NCBI RefSeq assembly: GCF_900188245.1
Contig: NZ_FZOK01000013.1
Coordinates: forward strand, 62,001-126,000
Direction of reading: 5' to 3'
Origin: Belliella buryatensis
Lineage (GTDB): Bacteria; Bacteroidota; Bacteroidia; Cytophagales; Cyclobacteriaceae
DNA: 64,000 nt
Below, piece after piece: positions 21,254 through 27,380 of the stretch (the first letter of the stretch is position 1; each line of letters starts with the position of its first letter). The notes under the pieces were generated by a model. That model saw nothing but the letters and a program-made list of their open reading frames with translations. It was not told where the DNA came from and did not search any database. A program made the position numbers and the translations under genes.

Positions 21254-21853
21254 ATGAACAAAACCACATTCCTTTCCCTGATTACCAGTCTATTTTTTGT
21301 TGTAGCTAGCTACGCTCAAGATGTCTCCGAAGAAACAGGCTCATTAAATAGTGGGACGATCTCTAGTCAGTTTGATTATTTAAACAGAGTTTCAAACAAT
21401 TATCAAGAATATAAGGTGGTAAAAAAAGCCAATTTGGATAAAATAAAATCCAATGTGCTTGATTCACTTAGTGTCTTTGAAAAGGAACTGGCAACTGTGC
21501 AACAAACTGTGGTCAATCAGCAAACCAAAATCGGTGAATTGGAAGCGCAAATGGAAAGTATTCAAAGAGATTTGCAAACTGCGGAGCAGGCACGAGATAG
21601 CTTTTTCTTCTTAGGAATACCGATTCACAAGAGCTCCTACAATGCCATCATGTGGACGATCGTTGCGGGACTATTGGCAGCATTCTTATTTTTTTTATAT
21701 AAGTTTAGCAGGAGTCACAAAGTGATTTCTATTGCAAGGCAGAATTTAGCAGAAACAGTGGAAGAGTTTGAGCAACATCGAAAAAACACGCTCGATAGAG
21801 AAAGAAAGTTGAAAAGAGAATTGGTGGATGCGCTAAATGGTAAGACATCTTAA
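21254..21853 (+). CDS. signal-peptide, coiled-coil and single-TM protein of unknown function
   Basis: A 199-residue protein. The signal peptide ends in ASYAQD; a charged coiled coil (about residues 60-115, with repeats such as QQTKIGELEAQMESIQRDL) leads into one strong TM helix (about 130-150, WTIVAGLLAAFLFFLY) and a basic cytoplasmic tail with another helix. Proteins of this build occur widely in Bacteroidota and, as far as I recall, some database entries name them tRNA (guanine-N1)-methyltransferase; nothing here resembles TrmD. The likely topology is periplasmic coiled coil and cytoplasmic tail. Function unknown. Confidence 0.7.
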   Translation: MNKTTFLSLITSLFFVVASYAQDVSEETGSLNSGTISSQFDYLNRVSNNYQEYKVVKKANLDKIKSNVLDSLSVFEKELATVQQTVVNQQTKIGELEAQMESIQRDLQTAEQARDSFFFLGIPIHKSSYNAIMWTIVAGLLAAFLFFLYKFSRSHKVISIARQNLAETVEEFEQHRKNTLDRERKLKRELVDALNGKTS

Positions 21854-21862
21854 TTAAGATTT

Positions 21863-22040
21863 ATGATTATCCTAAATGACAACAGTATACATATTTAACA
21901 CGAATTTTCTTCTGGCTAATGGCTAACCGTAATCTTCGCCATGGCTAAGAGTTATTAGTCAATTAGTTGTCAGTGAGTCAATTGCTTTAAAATACACGAT
22001 TTCATTTAACTACTGGTGTGAATTCGGATATACATATAAA
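21863..22040 (+). repeat. intergenic conserved element, copy A (candidate ncRNA or dispersed repeat)
   Basis: This non-coding stretch is homologous to 27208-27380. By hand count, a 64-nt core (21954-22017) matches 27293-27356 at 51 of 64 positions without gaps, and an upstream 37-nt block matches at about 30 of 37; the 40 nt between them are not conserved. It lies between two convergent genes and ends 12 nt before a bidirectional terminator. The variable centre holds three GGCTAA words and a possible ATGGC/GCCAT stem. No ORF is conserved between the copies. Orientation is arbitrary. Confidence 0.7.
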
Positions 22041-22052
22041 GATTTGAAAAAT

Positions 22053-22084
22053 AAAAAGCCTCACGTTTTTCGTGAGGCTTTTTT
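22053..22084. terminator. bidirectional terminator
   Basis: A perfect 13-bp stem (22053-22065 with 22071-22083) with a 5-nt T loop, A-run on one side and T-run on the other. It can stop transcription from both directions and lies 15 nt beyond the end of the minus-strand gene at 22099. Confidence 0.85.
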
Positions 22085-26972: not shown

Positions 26973-27048
26973 TTTGTTGGTTTTATTTAATCTTTTGTGA
27001 GTTAAGTAACTTTAGATGATTATTTTTTTTTTGCGCACATAGAGACTT

Positions 27049-27062
27049 TGCCAGTACTGGCA
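27049..27062. promoter_or_regulatory. 14-bp perfect palindrome, possible protein-binding site
   Basis: TGCCAGTACTGGCA is a perfect palindrome in the 469-nt non-coding gap after radA, flanked by AT-rich sequence and a GAAAAAAC tail. It could be a transcription factor site or a very tight hairpin. No function can be assigned. Confidence 0.3.
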
Positions 27063-27207
27063 GAAAAAACCGATTTAGTTTAGCTTTGATATTCATTCTA
27101 TATTAGATTCGACACGGACAAGTTACTATTTGATATTTCCCAATATCAACTGATGAATCCAATGAATTGGACTTTCTAGCAAAGAAGCGTACAATCAGAT
27201 TATTTTT

Positions 27208-27380
27208 ATGATTATTAGAATGATATCAGTATGCATATATGACACAAATATTCTTGCGAATAATCGTTATCTACACCACGGCCACAAGGGATATTAGTCG
27301 ATTAGTTATCAGAGCATCAACTGCTTTAAACTCCACCTTTTCCTATAGCTACTGGTAAGAGTACGAATATACTTTTGTAT
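27208..27380 (+). repeat. intergenic conserved element, copy B (candidate ncRNA or dispersed repeat)
   Basis: This is the second copy of the element at 21863-22040, in the same orientation. The distance from the ATTAGTC word to the CTACTGGT word is 56 nt in both copies. The copy again sits between convergent genes (radA and the Omp85-like gene) and is the main content of the 26973-27441 gap. The centre (27255-27290) differs from copy A. No protein-coding frame is shared. Confidence 0.7.

Follow-up and report, generated by a model that had tools for sequence, protein, structure and literature searches.

Two related intergenic sequences in Belliella buryatensis are probably old copies of a MITE family with IS1595-type ends

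Two homologous non-coding sequences (copies A and B) in a 64,000-nucleotide stretch of the Belliella buryatensis genome (hereafter the window) are explained, with a probability that we place at about 94%, as old copies of one MITE family moved in trans by a transposase of the IS1595 family. A MITE is a non-autonomous DNA transposon that retains nothing of an insertion sequence but its ends. An IS1595-family DDE transposase, acting in trans, would recognize the paired ends (a tip and an inner block), an element of ~130-190 bp would enter A/T-rich DNA with duplication of 8 bp, and point changes and small indels would afterwards wear the copies down. Copy A landed just 3' of a stop codon, before a terminator-like hairpin, and copy B stands beside another MITE. 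A host function is not needed to account for either copy.

Results

Two degenerate copies in the window

An earlier note on this DNA had described two conserved arms around a center that does not align. On recalculation, the 64-nt block is identical at 51 of 64 positions without a gap (21954-22017 versus 27293-27356), the best match of the 37-nt upstream block (starting at 21875 and 27219) at 30 of 37, and the 16-nt tail at 11 of 16, all as first reported. The local alignment score of the two sequences is 115, whereas none of 2,000 dinucleotide shuffles scored as high (maximum 32), which rules out chance similarity as the cause of their likeness; the best score among the 360 other 173-nt tiles of the window was 27. 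Both copies are non-coding, as had been proposed, in that no ORF of at least 80 aa (the size class considered) overlaps either of them. The non-aligning center holds for A and B compared alone, but becomes alignable with indels once further copies are added. The appearance of conserved arms and a variable center would be due to decay of the copies by point changes and small indels. The two copies and the ends of the better preserved one are as follows:

21863..22035, plus strand: MITE copy A, 173 bp, ATG...CAT (21862-22036 including the terminal T and A)
27208..27374, plus strand: MITE copy B, about 167 bp, degenerate, from ATG to a CAT-like end
21863..21887, plus strand: left terminal inverted repeat of copy A, with 3/22 mismatches to the family left end (match at G000:C13:83863-83884)
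22011..22035, plus strand: right terminal inverted repeat of copy A, with 2/25 mismatches to the family right end (match at G000:C13:84011-84035)

The start given in the earlier note, 21863, is the first base of the terminal ATG of the element. The family profile described below placed the two copies at 21863-22035 and 27208-27373, and these were its only matches inside the window at E ≤ 0.01. Copy A is a degenerate member of the long subfamily, and in copy B the terminal inverted repeats are degenerate. A blastn search of a phage collection at E ≤ 1e-5 returned no match, and a phage origin of the copies was rejected on this basis.

Family size and distribution

When copy A was used as a BLAST query against its own genome (G000; 3.88 Mb in 52 contigs), 50 matches were obtained at E ≤ 10, many of them covering one end of the query only. 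Thirty loci from this search fell into two groups, near-alike copies of ~149 bp and more degenerate ones of up to ~173 bp. In this genome, the left end was found 36 times when up to 3 mismatches were allowed, and the right end 23 times, versus 0 occurrences for the reversed control pattern in both cases. The earlier note had asked whether further copies exist in the genome and its relatives, and they do. A sequence-only profile built from 20 copies gave at least 78 matches in the own genome at E ≤ 0.01 (150 of 1,818 candidates scored), or at least 66 distinct places once both-strand readings of one element were merged, and it matched all eight genomes of the genus. The uncollapsed counts per genome are 78 (own), 147, 140, 61, 148, 2, 3, and 45, and the element is thus numerous in six of the eight (45 to 148 uncollapsed matches).

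In a wider set of 59 genomes (own included), 11 contain the left end when up to 2 mismatches are allowed; all 8 members of the genus are among them, together with 3 further genomes of the family. Some loci of the genus genomes agree in element length and flanks with loci from named Belliella (L111, L199), and the genus is therefore probably Belliella. In a named collection, the end pattern was detected in 51 stretches, 37 of which belong to Cyclobacteriaceae (Belliella 26, Algoriphagus 6, other Cyclobacteriaceae 5); the remainder come from Prevotella-type bacteria (9), Spirosoma (2) and other Bacteroidota assemblies (3). Five loci in Prevotellaceae metagenome assemblies (L189, L191, L203, L205, L222) carry different short elements with the tip ATGATTATCCGCAATGATACCA and the other end GCGGATAATCAT. 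The occurrence of this tip on differing elements indicates that it is common to distant Bacteroidota. Among the matches listed in a search of open papers, no title or abstract opening pointed to the present MITE family.

Anatomy of the element

The sequence quoted with the family description is TACTGGTGTGAAAGCGGATATACAT. The element is bounded by imperfect inverted repeats, each about 25 bp long, in which the tips ATGATTATCCGC / GCGGATATACAT and the inner blocks CACCAGTA / TACTGGTG form the paired motifs. Across 20 copies, the end-to-end pairing comprises 19 pairs, with 87.1% of 349 cells paired. The family has the terminal inverted repeats of MITEs (the same 87.1% of cells), is short and non-coding (173 and 167 bp for the window copies, with ORFs of at least 80 aa absent), and is dispersed in many copies whose insertions differ among relatives (the 66 places, with copy A missing from 7/7 relatives).

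In most copies, the left tip recurs in inverted orientation, as GCGGATAATCGT, near nt 50-61. The motif GCGGATAATC is present within 2 mismatches at nt 31-90 in 55 of 69 copies, versus 75 of 3,450 single-base-shuffled interiors. The columns of this internal motif carry 1.41 bits, against 1.08 and 0.98 on either side and 1.65 and 1.50 at the ends; since the copies share ancestry, this conservation is suggestive only.

Several variants of the element were observed. L117 and the 149-bp copies (e.g., L013) contain short direct repeats with GTCGAC-type motifs, the interior of L117 showing the 10-mers GACAGCAGCT, and such internal repeats may be a source of length variation. In L087 (2850-2909; G000:C9:29849), the left end is joined to a right end in a 60-bp derivative, with flanks matching at 6/8, as would be expected if the DNA from the internal GCGGATA motif to its terminal counterpart had been deleted. 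A separate class of 60-bp left-end elements was considered and dropped, as L087 was the only one of 9 fragments that resembled a closed short element. Likewise, a seemingly longer, gene-carrying version in the own genome (L088, 2920-5822) was rejected, since ends belonging to two separate small copies had been paired across a stretch of unrelated genes.

Target-site duplications

The flanks of the family carry a direct repeat. In a set of 69 copies with paired ends, which includes a few low-scoring readings and leaves out copy B as too changed at its ends, positions -9 to -2 on the left and +2 to +9 on the right agree at seven or eight of 8 bases in 41 copies and at all eight in 34; the other 28 copies have fewer than seven matching bases, which counts against the proposed origin. 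In control pairs, made of flanks from different copies, seven or eight bases agree in 61 of 4,692. Among duplication lengths of 6-13, a single register stands out, that of 10, made up of 8 core bases and the terminal A and T, with a mean identity of 0.75 as against 0.37-0.45 for the other lengths; by this register analysis, the family has an 8-bp duplication. According to excerpts of PMC8101967, duplications in the IS1595 family are usually of 8 bp, and the part of PMC12561309 that concerns ISApl4, an IS1016-type member, gives A/T-rich 8-bp repeats; the MITE duplications thus fit this family. Copy A retains a recognizable duplication:

21854..21861, no strand: left target-site duplication of copy A, TTAAGATT, directly 3' of the stop codon at 21851-21853 (ORF 21254-21853)
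22037..22044, no strand: right target-site duplication of copy A, TAAAGATT, a 7/8 match to the left one

Copy B alone has no recognizable target duplication, its flanks ATTATTTT / TGTATTAA agreeing at 4/8 positions, which is a point against the proposed origin of this copy; its right tip is also altered.

Insertion sites and orthologous gaps

Both copies lie between convergent ORFs. Copy A is located between a stop codon and a terminator-like hairpin, ahead of the convergent ORF:

22053..22083, no strand: terminator-like hairpin between the convergent ORFs around copy A

All seven other genomes of the genus contain the gene pair that flanks copy A, and in none of them does the orthologous gap hold this copy. 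These gaps also carry terminator-like hairpins, as judged by eye, and the hairpin at 22053-22083 therefore probably predates the insertion. The space from stop codon to hairpin is a few tens of bases in six of the relatives; in the seventh (G005) it is longer and without a match to the MITE family. Such short or element-free gaps indicate that copy A was inserted directly after the stop codon, upstream of the hairpin. A base-perfect empty site is not seen, owing to the divergence of the relatives (71-83% identity in the gene). The G005 gap holds ~100 nt bounded by inverted GTAATAC / GTATTAC (L154, 2091-2188), perhaps another small element.

Copy B has no match between its flanks in the six relatives in which these lie near each other, G005 falling outside this count with its flanks on different contigs. 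In the nearest relative (G004), homology breaks off at 27031 and begins again at 27376. These positions are where copy B, taken together with a second element described below (rep2), has its outer borders, and 1.3 kb of other DNA lies between them. The matches surrounding a young copy (L035) gave no clean empty-site reading.

An insertion sequence with the same ends

The own genome contains a 1,038-bp element with MITE-type ends (G000:C19:231286-232323) that is flanked on both sides by the identical 10-bp sequence ATTGATTAAT. Its minus strand carries two ORFs (225 and 100 aa) that occupy different frames, so that the transposase is interrupted. Both ORFs match PF12762 (DDE_Tnp_IS1595) and NF033547 (IS1595 family transposase), the 100-aa part falling under the cut-off of the latter model, and the 225-aa ORF also matches PF12760 (Zn_ribbon_IS1595). 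A relative of 1,040 bp in G002 (C11) has an uninterrupted frame of 310 aa (89% identity over 219 residues). The ends of this element differ from those of the family by no more than 3 mismatches; its flanks match at 6/8 only. G003 and G001 also contain relatives whose frames are uninterrupted, and these too have related ends and flanking repeats. The MITE ends are thus common to autonomous-type IS1595-family elements, interrupted in G000:C19 and uninterrupted in G002:C11.

In the own genome, all seven matches to the transposase are interrupted or partial and no working source was seen; one may sit in an assembly gap. A heavily decayed IS1595 transposase relic (G000:C19:230117-230761) lies ~0.5 kb from the 1,038-bp insertion sequence. 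The MITE and the insertion sequence have only their ends in common, and we therefore infer, from these ends, which transposase would have moved A and B.

A second element beside copy B and head-to-tail tandems

Copy B is directly preceded by a member of a second dispersed MITE family, rep2:

27032..27199, plus strand: rep2, ~168 bp, with the left border set by alignment
27200..27207, no strand: spacer from rep2 to the ATG of copy B, 8 bases, TTATTTTT (7 if the terminal T at 27207 is assigned to B)

Its ends, TATGGATATACGG... and ...GCGTATAATCAGA, resemble those of the G003/G001-type IS1595 elements, another subgroup of the IS1595 family. Flanking 8-mers are identical at 7 or 8 of 8 positions in seven of nine rep2 copies versus none of 72 mismatched pairs, and rep2 accounts for 38 of the 40 matches counted for G005. 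The spacer matches the left flank of rep2 (27024-27031) at 7/8 positions, but this flank is all T.

Across 59 genomes, a right end followed by a left end within 0-30 nt was found five times, and in four of the five the spacer is exactly 10 nt, corresponding to 8 bp plus the terminal A and T. Counted in this way, the spacing of rep2 and copy B is 9, one short of 10. Head-to-tail elements with a 10-nt CAT-to-ATG spacer were noted in L123 (1233-2431, reverse strand), L213, L254, L255, L256, and L258. In L123, where a MITE and an insertion sequence are neighbors, the identical 10 bases occur three times, once on the outer side of each element and once in the space separating them. In L254, L258, and L213, the spacer core is identical to an outer flank (the other flank of L213 disagrees, at 5/8), and the agreement is lower in L255 (6/8, 4/8) and L256 (7/8, 6/8). 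The simplest reading of these few cases is that a resident target duplication is re-used in tandems. Tentatively, and with considerable doubt, we suggest that an IS1595-type transposase might tend to insert exactly one target duplication away from a resident end, building head-to-tail tandems that perhaps include rep2 and copy B, and that the internal GCGGATAATCGT could be a third transposase site that aids tandem formation and yields shorter derivatives such as the 60-bp L087.

Discussion

Alternative explanations

The earlier note had left the choice between a structured RNA family and a dispersed short repeat. The evidence favors the repeat, given the inverted ends, the duplications and the absence of copy A from relatives, and goes against the RNA on Rfam, RNAalifold, and folding. 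A structured non-coding RNA family occurring many times, such as a cis-regulatory element or small RNA, is in our estimate very unlikely. Some less decayed copies do fold better than shuffles, both whole (L013, z -3.66; L019, z -3.01) and in 139-nt parts (L106 and L005, z -2.72 and -2.76), and in most copies the left tip can form a left-arm hairpin with its inverted counterpart inside the element; better folding of such copies is, however, expected from their inverted ends. The window copies themselves fold like shuffles, whole (z -0.39 and 0.18) and in parts. In two pairings named by hand on 20 copies, at least one two-sided change occurs in 5 of 16 and 5 of 19 pairs, equaled by 7 and 8 of 500 shuffles, and the covariation scores are equaled by 27 and 25 of 500, all of these figures ignoring kinship of the copies. 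Yet such changes are seen in 10 of 302 and 5 of 349 cells, and sliding the pairing by +3 gives equally many pairs with such changes in both counts. Because these pairings consist for the most part of the repeated transposon end, conservation at the DNA level explains them. The search for covarying base pairs that the earlier note called for thus speaks against an RNA structure: RNAalifold predicted 0 pairs from the 20 aligned copies, and the weak signal falls on the hand-named end-repeat pairings. At Rfam gathering thresholds the sole match in the window is a tRNA, no curated covariance model matching either copy, and the absence of copy A from 7/7 orthologous gaps further counts against an RNA.

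The elements are also short, partly palindromic and numerous, as REP/BIME-like repeats spread by a RAYT (Y1 transposase) instead of a DDE transposase would be. To our knowledge, REP elements leave no target duplications of the kind seen here, and both the 8-bp flanking duplications and the paired inverted ends common to an IS1595-type insertion sequence argue against this origin, which we regard as the least probable of all. A MITE origin with later co-option by the host, for instance as 3' end extensions of transcripts between convergent genes, could be suggested by the position of copy A between stop codon and terminator-like hairpin and by that of both copies between convergent ORFs. The degenerate state of both copies, and the lack of an orthologous copy of A in seven relatives and of B in six, make such co-option improbable. 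We therefore retain decayed IS1595-type MITEs as the explanation for A and B.

Relation to known elements

The earlier statement that no named element matches is borne out for this particular element, but its kind, the IS1595-derived MITE, is already known. In line with what excerpts of PMC8101967 and PMC12561309 give for the IS1595 family, the insertion sequence with MITE ends encodes both transposase domains and the duplications are A/T-rich and of 8 bp; unlike it, the window copies carry no transposase. A point against this assignment is that the MITE ends, TATG..., lack the terminal GG that the same excerpts report for Merlin relatives of the IS1595 family (PMC8101967) and for ISApl4, whose ends are GG... 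(PMC12561309). BrickBuilt and other MITEs of Porphyromonas gingivalis, as far as portions of PMC4596501 describe them, are likewise non-autonomous Bacteroidota repeats whose ends tie them to insertion sequences. By that description, BrickBuilt differs in its IS5-family-like ends, irregular duplications and internal 23-nt minisatellite. The Correia, ERIC, Chunjie, and QMITE elements, as reviewed in PMC10969869, are similar in size range, intergenic spread and variation in copy number among relatives; the terms IS1595, Bacteroid-, and Cytophag- are absent from the main text of that review.

Implications

Overall, these sequences most likely represent a newly delimited MITE family of an ordinary kind in Belliella-type bacteria, with IS1595-type transposases as its movers. 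A candidate structured RNA is thereby replaced by a mobile element with defined ends, a target duplication and a named transposase family. With many copies in six of the eight genomes of the genus, the family is one to mask in this genus ahead of any RNA-motif discovery or repeat-based comparison, and the tandems with fixed spacing offer a measurable handle on the target choice of IS1595-type transposases.
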